Shown piece by piece: positions 328 to 6,994 of a DNA stretch of 64,000 nucleotides (its first letter is position 1; each line of letters starts with the position of its first letter). Origin of the DNA: Nocardia sp. BSTN01 (GTDB lineage: Bacteria; Actinomycetota; Actinomycetes; Mycobacteriales; Mycobacteriaceae). The position numbers and the translations under genes are program-made. The stretch covers positions 62,001-126,000 of the forward strand of contig NZ_JADKYP010000005.1 in assembly GCF_015354405.1 (NCBI RefSeq), in the 5' to 3' direction. The notes beneath the pieces were generated by a model, which worked only from the letters and a program-made list of their open reading frames with translations, searched no databases and was not told the origin of the DNA.

Positions 328-954
328 TCAGCGAACCCCGCGCGGACGGAATTGAATGCTGATCCGCGGACCCACCGGCCGCCGCGTCTTCGGCACCGCA
401 TGTTCCCAGGTGCGCTGGCAGGAGCCGCCCATCACGAGAAGATCGCCGTGCCCGACGTGATAGCGGATGCTCGCGCCGCCGCCGCGCGGACGCAGCAGCA
501 GGGCCCGCGGCGCACCGATGGACAGGATCGCGACCATGGTGTCGTGGGTGGAACCGCGGCCACCGGTATCGCCGTGCCAGGCGACGCTGTCCTCGCCGTC
601 GCGGTAGTAACACAGACCGGCCGTGCGGAACGGTTCGCCGAGTTCCGGGCCGTAATGGCTGCTCAGCGCGGCGCGGGCGTCCTCCAGGATCGGATCCGGC
701 CAGGGCTCGTTCTCGCCGTAATGCCGCAGCAGACGCGGCACGTCGACCACGCGGTCGTACATCGGGCGGCGGTCGGCTCGCCACGGCACGCGAGTGGCCA
801 GCCGCTCGAACAGTTCGTCGGCCCCGTGCAACCATCCCGGCAGCAGGTCGACCCACGCGCCCTCGGTCAGCTGGGTGCGGCGCACGCCGTCCAACGGCCC
901 CAGTTCGATATCGCCGAAGCCGTCGAACAGCGATCTCTGCAGCGGTGTCGACAT
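328..954 (-). CDS. AlkB-like 2-oxoglutarate/Fe(II) dioxygenase (208 aa)
   Basis: Probably repairs alkylated DNA bases by oxidative dealkylation. The iron ligands of the family are visible as H127 and D129 in VAWHGDT and H185 in TWEHAVPK, with the 2-oxoglutarate-binding arginine in RISIQFR. The length (208 aa) is normal for short bacterial AlkB proteins. The ATG at 954 (MSTPLQRSLF) is chosen over a TTG at 990, because the TTG lies inside a LexA box and the protein family begins close to LQRSLF. No Shine-Dalgarno sequence precedes 954; a promoter with its -10 at 962-967 would give an almost leaderless mRNA. SOS induction is likely from the adjacent LexA site. Confidence 0.88.
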   Translation of the reverse strand: MSTPLQRSLFDGFGDIELGPLDGVRRTQLTEGAWVDLLPGWLHGADELFERLATRVPWRADRRPMYDRVVDVPRLLRHYGENEPWPDPILEDARAALSSHYGPELGEPFRTAGLCYYRDGEDSVAWHGDTGGRGSTHDTMVAILSIGAPRALLLRPRGGGASIRYHVGHGDLLVMGGSCQRTWEHAVPKTRRPVGPRISIQFRPRGVR

Positions 955-961
955 GCGTTCG

Positions 962-990
962 AATCTACGTTCTATCGAACATATGTTCAA
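962..990 (-). promoter_or_regulatory. Predicted promoter of the alkB-like gene
   Basis: On the minus strand a -35 TTGAAC (990-985) and a -10 TAGATT (967-962) are separated by 17 nt. Transcription would begin around 955, at or next to the ATG, so the message would be leaderless. The -35 is part of the LexA box. Predicted from sequence only. Confidence 0.55.
975..990. promoter_or_regulatory. LexA (SOS) box
   Basis: TCGAACATATGTTCAA matches the actinobacterial LexA operator TCGAAC-N4-GTTCGA in 15 of 16 defined or spacer positions (one C-to-T change in one half). It overlaps the predicted -35 of the AlkB-like gene, where LexA binding would block RNA polymerase. Confidence 0.8.
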
Positions 991-1012
991 GCATCGGACG
1001 TGCCGGTGTCCG

Positions 1013-1017
1013 GCGCC
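1013..1017. repeat. Left copy of 5-bp target site duplication (GCGCC)
   Basis: GCGCC abuts the TGT end of the element at 1018 and is repeated exactly after its ACA end at 2889-2893. A 5-bp duplication is typical of Tn7/Tn552/Mu-type DDE transposons. Confidence 0.75.
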
Positions 1018-1042
1018 TGTGCCGAAGCATCACATCTGTCAC
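1018..1042 (+). repeat. Left outer terminal inverted repeat
   Basis: Starts TGTGCCGAAG and ends ATCTGTCAC. It matches the inverted right end (2864-2888) at 21 of 25 bases. Confidence 0.78.
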
Positions 1043-1345
1043 TTCGGCAGCACATCTGTCACCGGCGTCTGTGGTGGGCGGCCAAGCGGTGGTTTGGGGT
1101 GGGCATCGGCGTAGGCGGCTATCACGGAGCGAAGACCTGGTGAGCAGGAGTTTCGGGCGCGCAGGAAGAGCCTTTTCCAGAGTTGGCCGGTGGGGTCGTT
1201 TTGAACCATTTCATCGATCGCGGCTGCGGTTTCTGCTTGGTTCGCGTTGGCCAGGAGACGGGAGGCAGTGGTCAGGAGCTGCGCCGCATGGTTTGGCCGC
1301 CAGCGGAGGTCGGTTCTTGGTGGAGGGGTGTCGCCCGTTGGGACG
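1039..1345 (-). pseudogene. C-terminal remnant of an unidentified transposon gene
   Basis: One frame stays open and protein-like here (LLTTASRLLANANQAETA, then PTGQLWKRLFLRARNS), ending at a TGA at 1041-1039 that overlaps the terminal repeats. No start codon with a ribosome-binding site is seen, and the frame is interrupted by a TAG at 1410-1408 further upstream. It could be the tail of a transposition accessory gene, but I do not recognise the family. Confidence 0.4.
1046..1063 (+). repeat. Left inner transposase-binding repeat
   Basis: GGCAGCACATCTGTCACC; its reverse complement matches 2809-2826 at 15 of 18 positions. It repeats the CACATCTGTCAC core of the outer repeat, as expected for tandem binding sites of TnsB/MuA-type transposases. 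Confidence 0.7.
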
Positions 1346-1407
1346 TGGACGTTGGGGCGTTCTTTCGATGTGCTCGTCGACGATTTCCGCGAGAGTAGTC
1401 GTGGGTG

Positions 1408-1834
1408 CTAGGCGCGGGCGGTGGGCCAGGTGGTGCTGATGAGTTCGGTGAGCATGTGCAGGTCGGTGAAGACAAGGGGTGCCAGAGGTGTGTGGTGGGG
1501 TCTTGGAAGAACACTGTTCGGGCGTCGCGTGGATCGTGGCGGATCACGTAGCGGCGCTTGTGTTTCCCGCCCCGATTCGAGAGAACGTTGCGTAGGGGTC
1601 CAAAGCGGCGCCGTCGTAGTGCAGGCCGCGGATCTTCACCCCGCGTTTGGGGTCGATGCCGACGTGGTGGACCGGCAGCAGTTGGTAGTAGAGGTCCGGG
1701 GATGGGATGGCCATTGCGAAACCGCCTTGGGTCATTGCGGCAGCGAACAAGGTGTTGGGGCAGTGGTCGCCGCTCGGATCCCAGGATGGCGACCCGCCGG
1801 TTAGCCCCCTTGAACGTCGCCGACCCAACTTCAA
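1408..1834 (-). pseudogene. Broken TniA/TnsB-type (Mu C-terminal) transposase
   Basis: Two frames together give the Mu/TniA C-terminal beta-barrel pattern: YYQLLPVHHVGIDPKRGVK then GLHYDGAALDPY in one frame, and RNVLSNRGGKHKRRYVIR then TVFFQDPTTHLWHPL in another. The switch near 1592 looks like a single lost base. A second shift follows near 1475 and a TAG lies at 1410-1408. The N-terminal DNA-binding region and the DDE catalytic core are absent. This was the transposase of the surrounding element. Confidence 0.78.
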
Positions 1835-1963
1835 CTACCGGTCGTAGTAGACACCGCACGGTCCCCTTTGTAGCATCCTCACGAGTCCGGCAGTGGCGGA
1901 CAAGGGGCGCTCAAGGCGATCTCGAATCGCTTTGGAGGAGAACAGAAGGGGCGGCGGACGGGC

Positions 1964-2776
1964 ATGAACAGCACGTCAATTTATTCGACAACACCGGCGG
2001 GGCTCAGCAGAAGCGGTGCGGGGGAGCCGCTGCTCTTGGTGCATGGGTTCACGCTGACTTGGCATTGCTGGGGCGGCGTGATCGATAGCTTGTCGAGTGA
2101 GTTCGACATTCTCGCGCCGACTCTGCCATTCCATTGGGGAGGACCGGCCGGTGACCGGCCACTGACCGTCGCCGCAGGGGCTGATCATCTTGAAGCGCTA
2201 ATGGATGAGACCGGCTGGGAGACTGCGCATATCGCCGGTCATTCCTTGGGCGGTTGGCTGGCGCTCGAGCTCGCCAGGCGCGGCCGGGCGCGCAGCGTGA
2301 CCGCCGTAGCCTCAGCGGGATTGTGGCAGCGCGGCAGCCGCCACGCCGAACGACTCCGGCGAAAGTTCCAAGTCATGTCCTACCTCGCACCGATGTCCCG
2401 CGGTTTCTCGAACCCGACCCTGGCCGCCATCGGCAAAGCCACCACGATGCGTGCCATGTGCCACCGCCCAGGACGCGTCGCACCCGACCTGGCTTCGATC
2501 GCCCTGCAATCGGCCGGACACTGCACCGCACGCGACATCAACGCGATCTGGCCCACCGACACGGCTCTGGAGATCATCGACCAGATCACCCCGCCGGTCA
2601 CGATCGTCTTCAGCGCACGCGACCGCGTGATTCCACCGTCTCGATACGGCGCGCAATTGGTCACCCCCACCGCAAACCGGCGAGTGTGCATGCTGACCGA
2701 TGTAGGACACGTACCGATGCTCGAGGTCCCCAGCAAGGTAGCTACCGAAATCCGGCGCACCGCAACCGTCAACTGA
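1964..2776 (+). CDS. Alpha/beta-fold hydrolase carried inside the transposon (270 aa)
   Basis: A serine hydrolase of unknown substrate. The oxyanion region LLLVHGF, nucleophile elbow GHSLGGW (S94), acid region SARDRVIPP and histidine in DVGHVPMLE form a complete catalytic triad in an intact frame, in contrast to the wrecked transposase next to it. There is no signal peptide or membrane segment. A purine-rich GGAGGAG lies about 25 nt before the ATG, too far to be an ordinary ribosome-binding site, so the start is only moderately secure. Because it lies between the terminal repeats it is probably cargo brought in by the element. Confidence 0.8.
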   Translation: MNSTSIYSTTPAGLSRSGAGEPLLLVHGFTLTWHCWGGVIDSLSSEFDILAPTLPFHWGGPAGDRPLTVAAGADHLEALMDETGWETAHIAGHSLGGWLALELARRGRARSVTAVASAGLWQRGSRHAERLRRKFQVMSYLAPMSRGFSNPTLAAIGKATTMRAMCHRPGRVAPDLASIALQSAGHCTARDINAIWPTDTALEIIDQITPPVTIVFSARDRVIPPSRYGAQLVTPTANRRVCMLTDVGHVPMLEVPSKVATEIRRTATVN

Positions 2777-2808
2777 CCTGCGCCTTGTGACACCAATACT
2801 GCGAACTC

Positions 2809-2826
2809 GGTGACAGATAGCCTGCC
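2809..2826 (-). repeat. Right inner transposase-binding repeat
   Basis: GGTGACAGATAGCCTGCC, inverted relative to 1046-1063 (15 of 18 matches). Confidence 0.7.
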
Positions 2827-2863
2827 TCACCACGACGGTATGTCGACGTCACACCGATTGCCT

Positions 2864-2888
2864 GTGACAGATATGCAGCTGCGGCACA
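2864..2888 (-). repeat. Right outer terminal inverted repeat
   Basis: Begins GTGACAGATATGCAG and ends GGCACA. It is the inverted partner of 1018-1042 (21 of 25). Confidence 0.78.
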
Positions 2889-2893
2889 GCGCC
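2889..2893. repeat. Right copy of 5-bp target site duplication (GCGCC)
   Basis: Exact repeat of 1013-1017, immediately outside the ACA end of the element. Confidence 0.75.
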
Positions 2894-2910
2894 GATCCGG
2901 GCGGCCCGGA

Positions 2911-3777
2911 TCAGCTCAGGTGCGCACGCACGAAATCGACCACCGCGTCGGAGAATTCGTCGTTGACATCACTGGCGGCGGTATGCGCGGCACCGGTGAT
3001 CTCGACGTACTCCATCTGCGGCACCAGCGCGCGGAAGTCGGCGACACCCTGTTCGCTGACCACGTCCGACAGTCGTCCGCGCACCAGCAGCACCGGGATC
3101 TCGAGCGCGCGAGCGGCATCCTCGAGGTCGCTGGTCTGCAGTTCGATGTCCTCGGGCCGGCTCGACATCATCGCCGGATCCCAGTGCCAATACCAGCGCC
3201 CGTCCTCGCGCAGCCGCAGATTGCGCCGCAGGCCCTCGGGGTTGCGGGGCCGGCGGCGGTGGGGCAGATATTCGGCCACCGCATCGGCGGCTTCCTCCAG
3301 GGAGGCGAAGCCCTCGGGATGGCCGCCGAGGAAGTTCATCACCCGTTCCACGCCCTTGTGTTCCGGGCGCGGCACCACATCGACCAGAACGAGTCCGGCG
3401 ATGCGCTCACGGCCGGGGCGGGCGGTCGCCAGCAGTGCGGTCAATCCGCCCATGCTCGCGCCGACCACGATGGCGGGCCGGTCGAGTTCGGCGAGGATGT
3501 CCAGCAGGTCGGCGGTCATCGCCGTGCGCGAGTAGTCGCCGTCCGGCGCCCAGTCGCTCTCCCCGTGACCGCGGGCGTCCAGCAGGACGGCGTGCATCCC
3601 CACCTTCGCCAGCGCGGCGCCCGATTCCTTCCAGGAGTGCCGGGTCTGGCCGCCGCCGTGCAGGAAGACCGCCAGCGGGCCGTCGGCCGGCCCCCAGCTC
3701 TCCCCGGCCAGGGCGATGCCGCCGTGGCCGCGGAAGGTGATCCGGCGGGGCTCGGTGAAGTCGGCGTCGTTGCTCAC
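2911..3777 (-). CDS. Alpha/beta-fold hydrolase (288 aa)
   Basis: A cytosolic alpha/beta hydrolase. [14 protein letters not shown] supplies the oxyanion hole, GASMGG the nucleophile (S108) and ITGAAHTA the catalytic histidine. Substrate unknown; the family includes esterases, epoxide hydrolases and haloperoxidase-like enzymes. The GTG at 3777 (SNDADFTEP follows) is chosen because the fold begins shortly after it; GGAGG lies directly against the codon, which is unusually close. It is not closely similar to the hydrolase inside the neighbouring transposon. It is transcribed away from the pyr operon. Confidence 0.82.
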
Positions 3778-4648: not shown

Positions 4649-5610
4649 GGCATCTGCTCTCGGTCACCGACCTCGACCGCACCACCGCCACCGAACTCCT
4701 CGACGACGCCCAGCGCTTCGAACAGGCGCTGCTCGGCCGTGAGGTCCGCAAACTGCCCACCCTGCGCGGCCGCACCGTGATGACCGTGTTCTTCGAGAAC
4801 TCCACCCGCACCCGGGTCTCGTTCGAGGTCGCGGGCAAATGGATGAGCGCCGATGTCATCAACGTCAGCGCCTCGAGTTCCTCGGTCTCGAAGGGCGAGT
4901 CGCTGCGCGATACCGCGCTGACCCTGCACGCCGCGGGCGCCGACGCGCTGATCGTGCGGCATCCGGCATCCGGGGCGGCTCATCAGATCGCCCGCTGGTT
5001 CGGCGAATTGGACACCGGTTCGGGCGGCTACACCGGAACCGGTCCCGCGATCGTCAACGCCGGCGACGGCACGCACGAACATCCCACCCAGGCCCTGCTG
5101 GACGCGCTGACGCTGCGGCAGCGACTGGGCGAGCTGGCGGGCAAGCGCATCGTGATCGTCGGCGACATCCTGCACAGCCGCGTCGCGCGGTCCAACGCCT
5201 TCCTGCTCGACACCCTCGGCGCCGAGGTGGTGCTGGTCGCGCCGCGCACCCTGTTGCCGGTCGGGGTCGAGCAGTGGCCGGTGCAGGTCTCGCATTCGCT
5301 CGACGCGGCGCTGCCCGGCGCGGACGCGGTGATGATGCTGCGGGTGCAGGCCGAGCGGATGAACGGCGGCTTCTTCCCGTCGGCCCGCGAATACTCCATC
5401 GCCTACGGACTGAACGAGCGGCGCATGGCCCTGCTCGACGACGACGCGGTCGTCCTGCATCCGGGTCCGATGCTGCGCGGTATGGAAATCGCCTCGGCGG
5501 TCGCCGATTCCCCGAAAGCCGCAGTGCTGCAACAGGTTACCAACGGTGTGCACATGCGCATGGCGGTGCTGTTCCGCCTGCTGGTCGGCGCGGGGGAGGC
5601 CGTCGCATGA
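4645..5610 (+). CDS. pyrB: Aspartate carbamoyltransferase catalytic subunit (321 aa)
   Basis: Condenses carbamoyl phosphate and aspartate, the first committed step of pyrimidine synthesis. The carbamoyl-phosphate loop STRTRVSFE, the mobile loop [11 protein letters not shown] and the [11 protein letters not shown] strand are intact. Starts with GTG inside the pyrR stop (GTGA). No pyrI regulatory subunit is present, as usual in actinobacteria; control is through PyrR. Its stop overlaps the ATG of a 16-codon frame leading into pyrC. Confidence 0.97.
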
Positions 5611-5657
5611 GCATCGGCATGAGCATGAGCTTCTACGTGGAAGGTGCGGGCGCGTGA
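5607..5657 (+). CDS. Possible 16-residue coupling ORF between pyrB and pyrC
   Basis: [16 protein letters not shown] begins in an ATGA overlap with the pyrB stop (5607-5610) and ends in a GTGA overlap with the pyrC start (5654-5657). GGGGGAGG sits 7-8 nt before its ATG. It could be translated only to carry ribosomes from pyrB to pyrC. ATGAGC is repeated three times in it. No homology can be claimed for so short a peptide. Confidence 0.4.
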
Positions 5658-6994
5658 GCGATCTGGTCATCCGGGGCGTGCGTCCCTACGGCGAGGGCGA
5701 GCCGGTCGACGTGCTGGTGCGCGACGGTGTGATCGTCGCGCTCGGCGCGCGATCCGGTGCTGCCGTCGACGGCGTCGAGGTCGCCGCCGATGCCGAGGTG
5801 CTGGAGGCGGACGGCCGGATCCTGCTCCCCGGCTTCGTCGACCTGCACACCCACCTGCGCGAACCCGGCCGCGAGGACACCGAGACCATCGAAAGCGGTT
5901 CGGCCGCAGCGGCATTGGGTGGGTACACCGCCGTGTTCGCGATGGCCAACACCTATCCCGTGGCCGACACCTCGGTCGTCACCGATCACGTGTGGCGGCG
6001 CGGGCAGGAGGTCGGGCTGGTCGATGTGCATCCGGTCGGCGCGGTGACCGTCGGCCTGGCCGGCAAGCAACTGGCCGAGATGGGCACCATGGCCGCCGGT
6101 GAGGGCCGGGTGCGGATATTCTCCGACGACGGGCACTGCGTCTACGACCCACTGATCATGCGCCGCGCGCTCGAGTACGCGAAATCTCTCGGCGTGCTGA
6201 TCGCCCAGCACGCCGAGGAGCCGCGGCTCACTCAGGGCGCCGTCGCGCACGAGGGCCCGAACGCCGCCCGGCTGGGCCTGGCCGGCTGGCCGCGCGCGGC
6301 CGAGGAGTCGATCGTGGCCCGCGACGCGCTGCTGGCCCGCGACGCCGGAGCCCGGGTGCACATCTGCCACGCCTCCACCGCCGGCACCGTCGAACTGGTG
6401 AAATGGGCCAAGGCGCAAGGGATTTCGATCACCGCCGAGGTCACGCCGCATCATCTGCTGCTCGACGATTCGCGGCTGGAGACCTACGACGCGGTGAACA
6501 AGGTCAATCCGCCGCTGCGGGAGGCCTCCGACGCCCAGGCGCTGCGCAAGGCCCTGGCCGACGGAGTGATCGACTGTGTGGCCACCGACCACGCCCCGCA
6601 CGCCGAACAGGAGAAGTGCTGCGAGTTCGCCGCCGCTCGTCCCGGCATGCTGGGGCTGGAGACCGCGCTGTCGATCATCGTCGAGACCCTGGTCGCTCCG
6701 GGCCTGCTCGACTGGCGCGGGGTGGCGAAGGTGATGAGCGAGAACCCGGCCCGCATCGCCGGACTCGACGATCAGGGCCGCCCGATCGCGGTCGGCGAAC
6801 CGGCCAACCTGACCCTGATCGACCCGGATGCGTCGTGGACCGTGCGGGCGCGGGAGCTGGCGAGCATTTCCGACAACACGCCGTACGAGGCGATGACCCT
6901 GCCCGCCAAGGTCGCCGCCACGATGCTGCGCGGGCGGATCACCGCCCGCGACGGAGTGGTGACGACCGCCCTGGCGGGGAGAGTGGGGCGATAA
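5654..6994 (+). CDS. pyrC: Dihydroorotase (446 aa)
   Basis: Cyclises N-carbamoyl-aspartate to dihydroorotate. Metal ligands are visible in [10 protein letters not shown], in HICHAST and in the TDHAPH aspartate motif; [11 protein letters not shown] is the second conserved histidine region. It is a class I (long) dihydroorotase of normal length. The GTG at 5654 ([15 protein letters not shown] follows) with GGAAGG eight nt upstream is a better start than any in the overlapping upstream frame. The stop TAA overlaps the ATG of the next gene (TAATG). Confidence 0.96.

Follow-up and report, generated by a model that had tools for sequence, protein, structure and literature searches.

A short Tn7-like element with a single hydrolase gene in a Nocardia chromosome, compared with a complete plasmid-borne relative and with other short elements in the genus

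Transposition-defective Tn402-like elements and class 1 integrons have kept their ends and lost their tni genes, and their cargo is thought to be mobile in trans. MITEs, as presented in the available part of PMC10969869, are short, non-autonomous elements with terminal repeats and a target duplication; Tn7 has two mentions in that text, one on attTn7 targeting and the other in the title of a reference. For Tn7-like transposons, the available part of the survey by Benler et al. 2021 (PMC8649781) admitted elements that had TnsB together with a second Tn7 gene or more, reports medians of 14 to 29 kb for their length, names COG0596 (MenH-family esterase) among cargo, and states that no transposon of its Actinobacteria-dominated clade has been characterized experimentally. 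Given that TnsB and another gene were required, elements without transposition genes lie outside the design of that survey as far as it is set out there. Judged by title and opening of the abstract, short non-autonomous Tn7-like elements in Nocardia are not described among the literature matches listed, and PMC12915292, the one paper listed that pairs Nocardia with the term Tn7-like, concerns a Rhodococcus.

The stretch of DNA analyzed here (the window; 64,000 nucleotides, G000:C152:62001-126000) belongs to a 7.79-Mb draft genome (G000) and contains a real, precisely bounded mobile element, which lies in a Nocardia chromosome and has lost its own transposition genes. The element spans positions 1018-2888 (1871 bp), with TGT at 1018 and ACA ending at 2888, and 21 of its outer 25 bp match between the two ends (counted by eye). 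These boundaries and termini, the outer repeats, the GCGCC duplication and the length are all as the first-pass annotation of the sequence had given them. The pair 1017-1042 / 2864-2889 was the first-listed inverted repeat within 800-3200 (85% over 26 nt). An inner repeat pair was found as well (1046-1064 / 2808-2826, 84% over 19 nt), but the ends hold more sites than one such pair: TGTCAC-type sites with no more than one mismatch are located at positions 20 and 40 of the left end and at 20, 74 and 97 of the right end, with a few further one-mismatch matches beyond these. Ends of the form TGT...ACA, several asymmetric repeats that are putative transposase-binding sites and a 5-bp duplication mark the element as Tn7-like. 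Its features are as follows.

1013..1017, no strand: target duplication GCGCC, left copy (read from the sequence; single copy in empty sites L004, L006 and L007)
1018..1062, plus strand: TniQ-side end, TGTGCCGAAGCATCACATCTGTCAC and a second site, with TGTCAC at end positions 20 and 40; aligns with the right end of the NBC_01377 element
1042..1482, minus strand: TniQ remnant, residues 256-405 to the natural stop, the middle frame-disrupted and with one in-frame stop (frames aligned separately)
1473..1816, minus strand: TnsB remnant, residues 470-584 of 753 in two frames with one frameshift; 71% and 74% amino acid identity to NBC_01377 TnsB
1832..2766, plus strand: hydrolase segment, made up of the gene and some 130 bp before it; a locus in Nocardia genome G120 shares 79% identity with it
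1964..2776, plus strand: alpha/beta-hydrolase gene, intact, 270 amino acids, putative cargo (Abhydrolase_6, 1e-18)
2787..2888, minus strand: TnsA-side end with TGTCAC-type sites at end positions 20, 74 and 97; matches the left end of the NBC_01377 element at 73 of 102 bases
2889..2893, no strand: target duplication GCGCC, right copy (read from the sequence)

The host genome gave one full match to the element; the sole other match was a 97-bp hydrolase stretch at 71%. With window positions 700-3400 as query against 151 Nocardia genomes, the matches to the two flanks overlapped in G014, G076 and G040 (5 bases each) and in G071 (4 bases); in genomes further removed, kilobases separate the two flanks, which is uninformative on the insertion. 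The joined flanks were aligned to 11 loci, picked from the 30 found, and in all 11 the element is absent and the flanks are contiguous. The first-pass annotation had named beforehand an empty site that does not collapse to one GCGCC as an outcome against its reading; exactly one GCGCC was observed at the junction in three of these loci (L004, L006 and L007), L005 (from G071) retains four of the five bases, and the other seven have diverged there. Divergence at fourfold sites from the four nearest empty-site genomes was 0.085-0.088 (1,689-1,705 sites; Jukes-Cantor 0.090-0.094). Taking half of this divergence, a step that is itself inferential, the insertion would have an age of at most some 0.045 substitutions per fourfold site along the lineage of the window.

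Among complete elements, the nearest one that was found belongs to Nocardia sp. NBC_01377: a Tn7-like transposon of 5778 bp that encodes TnsA, TnsB, TnsC and TniQ, present as two identical copies (L051 and L052 7543-13320) on two plasmids (NZ_CP109567 and NZ_CP109568) and flanked by the duplications TCCGG and ACAAG. Each plasmid carries TnsA-like, TnsB-type (annotated as hypothetical), TniB-family and TniQ genes. The TnsA protein scored above the cut-off for NCBIfam TnsA_like_Actin; in Pfam, TniB and TniQ were above the cut-off and Mu-transpos_C in TnsB was just below it. With identical copies and different target duplications on two plasmids of one strain, this transposon looks recently active. 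The window element resembles it in homologous ends, in the order of the remnants, in TGT...ACA termini and 5-bp duplications, and in end layout; it differs in that the NBC_01377 element has 5778 bp, four transposition genes and no annotated cargo, whereas the window element has 1871 bp, no working transposition gene and one cargo gene. The homology of ends and remnants bears out the earlier assignment to a Mu/Tn7-type transposon with degraded transposition genes. The label TniA-type, which the same annotation had used, needs correcting, in that the closest complete relative found also encodes TnsA and is thus a TnsABC-TniQ element.

Alignment of the reverse complement of the window element (e) to the NBC_01377 element as reference placed e1-102 on reference 1-102 (left end), e1100-1416 on 2459-2776 (TnsB) and e1402-1871 on 5300-5778 (the TniQ C-terminus and right end), so that the ends and the two remnants are collinear with the complete transposon and the hydrolase segment occupies the place of TnsA and the TnsB N-terminus. 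No trace of TnsA, of the N- and C-termini of TnsB, of TnsC or of the first 255 residues of TniQ was found in the window element, and at E ≤ 0.01 it showed no similarity to TnsA or TnsC and similarity to the C-terminus alone of TniQ. What had been described as a single frameshifted C-terminal transposase fragment is indeed degraded and frameshifted, but it consists of a TnsB piece joined to the C-terminus of TniQ; given that the intervening parts have left no trace, two genes have therefore been joined by deletion. The position of the deletion junction is ambiguous, so that the TnsB remnant, at its end, has about 10 bp in common with that of TniQ. Of TnsB, residues 470-584 alone are left, with a frameshift, so that the element holds no functional copy; plasmid records match the minus-strand piece 1550-1834 at up to 77%.

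The alpha/beta-hydrolase gene between the ends had been annotated as intact, and the ORF at 1964-2776 proved to be so. Ser94, Asp220 and His249 are present, which we assign by motif as the catalytic triad of this fold. Among proteins of solved structure, the closest in sequence are an isobutylene epoxide hydrolase (1.1e-12) and an esterase (5e-12), and none of the 15 NCBIfam families listed for the protein reaches its curated cut-off. Homologues of the hydrolase are on record for Nocardia vermiculata NBRC 100427 and Nocardia sp. alder85J, and those in Nocardia genomes G120 and G140 share about 80% amino acid identity with it. The nucleophile motif GHSLGG of the window hydrolase reads GNSLGG in G120, the serine being kept. 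A hydrolase gene beside TnsA on the NBC_01377 plasmid unnamed1 (L052 6602-7426) was considered as a source of the cargo and set aside, since it lies outside the transposon; a tblastn search of L052 with the window hydrolase returned nothing at E ≤ 1e-3.

To place the element in the genus, we searched 151 Nocardia genomes for its ends. A strict 25-bp pattern with at most 3 mismatches was found in six of them, including that of the window, and in none of the controls, and a looser pattern was found at 49 places in 36 genomes, compared with 2 for the reversed control. In the 36 regions examined, which surround most of these places (G058:C30 and G130:C579 were left out), 11 of the 49 ends belong to six paired elements and two to an unequal pair in G007; the remaining ends examined had no convincing partner in the stretch around each, and one end of the G016 element was too divergent to register as a match. 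We also scanned 201 sequences (1.40 Mb, many overlapping) with a scoring matrix for convergent pairs of ends 300-3000 bp apart. The scan gave 23 pairs, 16 of which are flanked by identical 5-mers and correspond to the same six elements, those of the window and of five other genomes; the matrix was partly built from these ends, but the flanking 5-mers form no part of it. The seven pairs with unequal 5-mers are accounted for by G007 (two copies of one place) and by an inner site of the window element (five copies), so that, with that inner site uncounted, six of seven distinct pairs are elements with identical 5-mers. A reversed-sequence control yielded one end and no pair, and the window ends scored 29.1 and 22.1 (threshold 8) when their own two sequences were left out of the matrix. 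The five other elements, each with convergent ends and identical flanking 5-mers, are listed below.

G031: 632 bp, duplication GTTCG
G016: 1176 bp, duplication CAAGA
G058: 1231 bp, duplication CCTGG
G096: 806 bp, duplication GGATC
G121: 944 bp, duplication AAAGC

The target duplications thus vary among the elements, and the ends are similar. A layout of sites at 20 and 40 in one end and at 20, 74-75 and 97-98 in the other, with at most one mismatch per site, is common to the window element, the NBC_01377 transposon and the elements of G031, G058, G096 and G121, the last four agreeing with the window to within 1 bp. Further one-mismatch sites are present in some elements, several sites in G096 and G121 are mismatched, one G058 end starts with CGT instead of TGT, and the G016 element, without inner sites, is the weakest case. 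The interiors could not be aligned with one another at E ≤ 0.01, the end regions alone aligning over up to 165 bp (G058 with G096), except for a weak 41-bp match between G016 and the window element. A gene is supported in two of the four elements that share the layout. The G058 element carries an ORF of the RibD_C family (5e-18; the corresponding NCBIfam domain was far below its cut-off), of which homologues in G108, G045, G065 and G030 share essentially the coding region alone, and a small ORF of the G031 element, which has no Pfam or NCBIfam match, resembles a locus in G032 at 68% amino acid identity across 120 residues. The 150-residue ORF of the G121 element has neither such a match nor other support, and no convincing gene was found in the G096 and G016 elements. 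A search with twelve Tns proteins, drawn from three elements, gave no Tns remnant at E ≤ 0.01 in the five other elements. For the G058 element, an uninterrupted paralogue of the target within its own genome serves as the empty site, and the alignment to it is better with one CCTGG than with two (209 versus 200). A search for a clean empty site of the G031 element found none, its flanks matching separate places in relatives.

These findings suggest that the window element probably derives, by internal deletion, from a Tn7-like transposon of Actinobacteria with TnsA, TnsB, TnsC and TniQ, and that it is a non-autonomous unit with one hydrolase gene as cargo, moved in trans. The repeat sets of both ends, of two and three sites, are kept and no transposition gene works; we infer from the repeats that these would be TnsB-binding sites, at which TnsABC-TniQ supplied in trans by a complete relative would have cut and pasted the element. 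The helper would probably have been borne on a plasmid since lost, and the hydrolase would have been carried along. The element has the ends of an autonomous relative, no transposase and an insertion as a unit, which fits a derivative that would have been non-autonomous already when it inserted.

Mobilization in trans is supported by a search of the 151 Nocardia genomes with NBC_01377 TnsB at E ≤ 1e-10, for which the window remnant served as positive control, because the genomes with short elements gave no intact match: G031, G058, G096 and G121 had none, G000 had its remnant only, and the match in G016 is interrupted by TAA, although this query and cut-off could miss more distant helpers. Matches occurred in 26 of the genomes; among those listed, the window remnant was about 70% identical and the others 28-37%. 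A search of 401 genomes of the family at E ≤ 1e-120 returned nothing and was discarded as uninformative, the cut-off being so strict that the window remnant itself failed to pass.

In keeping its ends after loss of the transposition genes, the element works like the defective Tn402 elements and class 1 integrons; unlike these, it belongs to a TnsA-bearing lineage and has a single gene. By eye, no integron integrase was recognized among the ORFs of the element, of which Pfam covered the hydrolase and two on the minus strand, and no cassette array was seen. With MITEs, as far as PMC10969869 describes them in its available part, the element shares short length, non-autonomy, terminal repeats and a target duplication, but it has a full gene and long asymmetric ends; at 1871 bp with an intact 270-residue ORF it is not short and non-coding. 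Points of likeness to the Actinobacteria-dominated clade in the available part of PMC8649781 are Tn7-like type, occurrence in Actinobacteria and class of cargo.

The window element is more interesting in the context of this family than alone, and its earlier description as an unusual single-gene element of small size needs qualifying, given that other short elements with such ends occur in Nocardia. We regard it as an evenly balanced proposition that Nocardia harbors Tn7-like cassettes of approximately 0.6-1.9 kb, so far seen in this genus only, with asymmetric ends that hardly vary and interiors that can be swapped (a hydrolase, a RibD_C protein, small proteins or no clear gene), which would be spread in trans by transient, probably plasmid-borne TnsABC-TniQ helpers. 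The window copy looks like an intermediate between a complete transposon and fully gutted mini-elements, and its TnsB and TniQ scraps suggest how a complete element may become a cassette; because it keeps Tns remnants and the other five do not, it may also have a history separate from theirs. Stripped single-gene copies would escape surveys that start from transposition genes. If they are moved in trans, single genes would spread within the genus without a visible mobility gene, and the ends alone would be a search tool. The shared layout makes end recognition testable in actinobacterial Tn7-like elements.

A less likely history, which we hold possible, is that a TnsABC-TniQ transposon, complete and with its cargo, went into the GCGCC site and was there stripped of its transposition genes by two later internal deletions, with the hydrolase spared by selection or by chance. 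Apart from the corrected genes, this is the view of the first-pass annotation. Loss in place after insertion owes its standing to the small number of lesions and to the constrained pattern of TnsB: the remnants contain one TnsB frameshift, one frame-disrupted stretch in TniQ and one TniQ stop, and pairwise dN/dS of the TnsB remnant was 0.15 over 42 codons and 0.25 over 75, which together indicate late inactivation (the TniQ value of 0.57 over 143 codons includes a misaligned stretch). A few small lesions are also compatible with the age bound (about 0.045 per fourfold site). The lesion count was considered as a sign of decay before insertion and dropped: BLASTN suggested many indels, frame-by-frame alignment left only a few, and the count does not decide between decay in situ and mobilization in trans. 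Two large deletions would, however, be needed in place within that same age bound, and the other short units have identical 5-mers and no Tns remnants that were found. The existence of such units indicates that the family yields short derivatives that insert.

Selection on the cargo, which the first-pass annotation had offered as one implication of its intactness, does not follow. Pairwise dN/dS between the hydrolase and its homologues was 0.144 and 0.147 at dS of 0.71 and 0.87, and the gene family is, on this sequence comparison, constrained over a history older than the insertion; given that the insertion lies below about 0.045, these values are no guide to selection after it, and we dropped them as proof of selection on the cargo. 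It is improbable that the hydrolase is not cargo at all and that illegitimate or homologous recombination brought it into the element when this was already inserted and in decay. Such an entry would agree with the extent of homology to other loci, given that G120 shares the gene and approximately 130 bp upstream, G140 shares the coding sequence alone, and no transposon ends were found near either homologue in the stretches searched, but the segment comes to within about 20 bp of the TnsB remnant and, at its other edge, as close to the TnsA-side sites, and has damaged neither, and the elements of G058 and G031 also hold, between ends of the family, a gene with homologues elsewhere. That the repeats are coincidental and the hydrolase an old resident of the locus is refuted by the empty sites, the flanks being contiguous without the element in 11 of 11 aligned loci, and by the homology of the ends to a complete transposon; with nothing found in its favor, we give this reading next to no weight.

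Several further ends deserve a brief description. The convergent pair in G007 (L150 2001-3381) was not counted as an element, its 5-mers being unequal (CCGGA and GCCGA); the ends are 1381 bp apart and may be unrelated or belong to a rearranged element. In G127, a TnsA N-terminal fragment (58% over 67 amino acids) lies beside an end of another subfamily, which ties that subfamily to TnsA-bearing elements. In the same genome (L172 8857-8911 and L173 9382-9411), two ends stand back to back with GGAGA alone between them, and a third, on another contig, is likewise followed by GGAGA, possibly from adjacent insertion of two elements. A search for plasmid helpers of this subfamily gave no matches for one end and one weak, unrelated 31-bp match for the other. 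In G121 (L120 9917-12112), a TniQ-like stretch (28%) about 1.2 kb inside a family end is perhaps another decayed copy; no convincing second end was found within about 10 kb, the one weak candidate having a mismatched 5-mer. A family end in G016 (L153 501-8221) is followed by TnsA-, TnsB- and TnsC-like genes, of which TnsB is interrupted by TAA, and its partner was not found in 14.5 kb. In a wider sample of the family, 17 of 201 genomes matched the ends, four of them Nocardia (G000, G036, G056 and G093). The 13 matches in the 186 genomes outside Nocardia, one each, all have one mismatch and look unlike the consensus, and they exceed the 6 of the reversed control; this sample gave no clear ends outside Nocardia.

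At its locus, the window element lies between a 2OG-Fe(II) oxygenase (AlkB-like) gene (328-990) and a second alpha/beta-hydrolase gene (2911-3777) on the same strand. Upstream of the AlkB-like gene, at window positions 975-990, is TCGAACATATGTTCAA, which resembles an actinobacterial LexA (SOS) box. It is the only match to that motif in the window, with 0.00 expected, and the element is inserted 27 bp beyond it.
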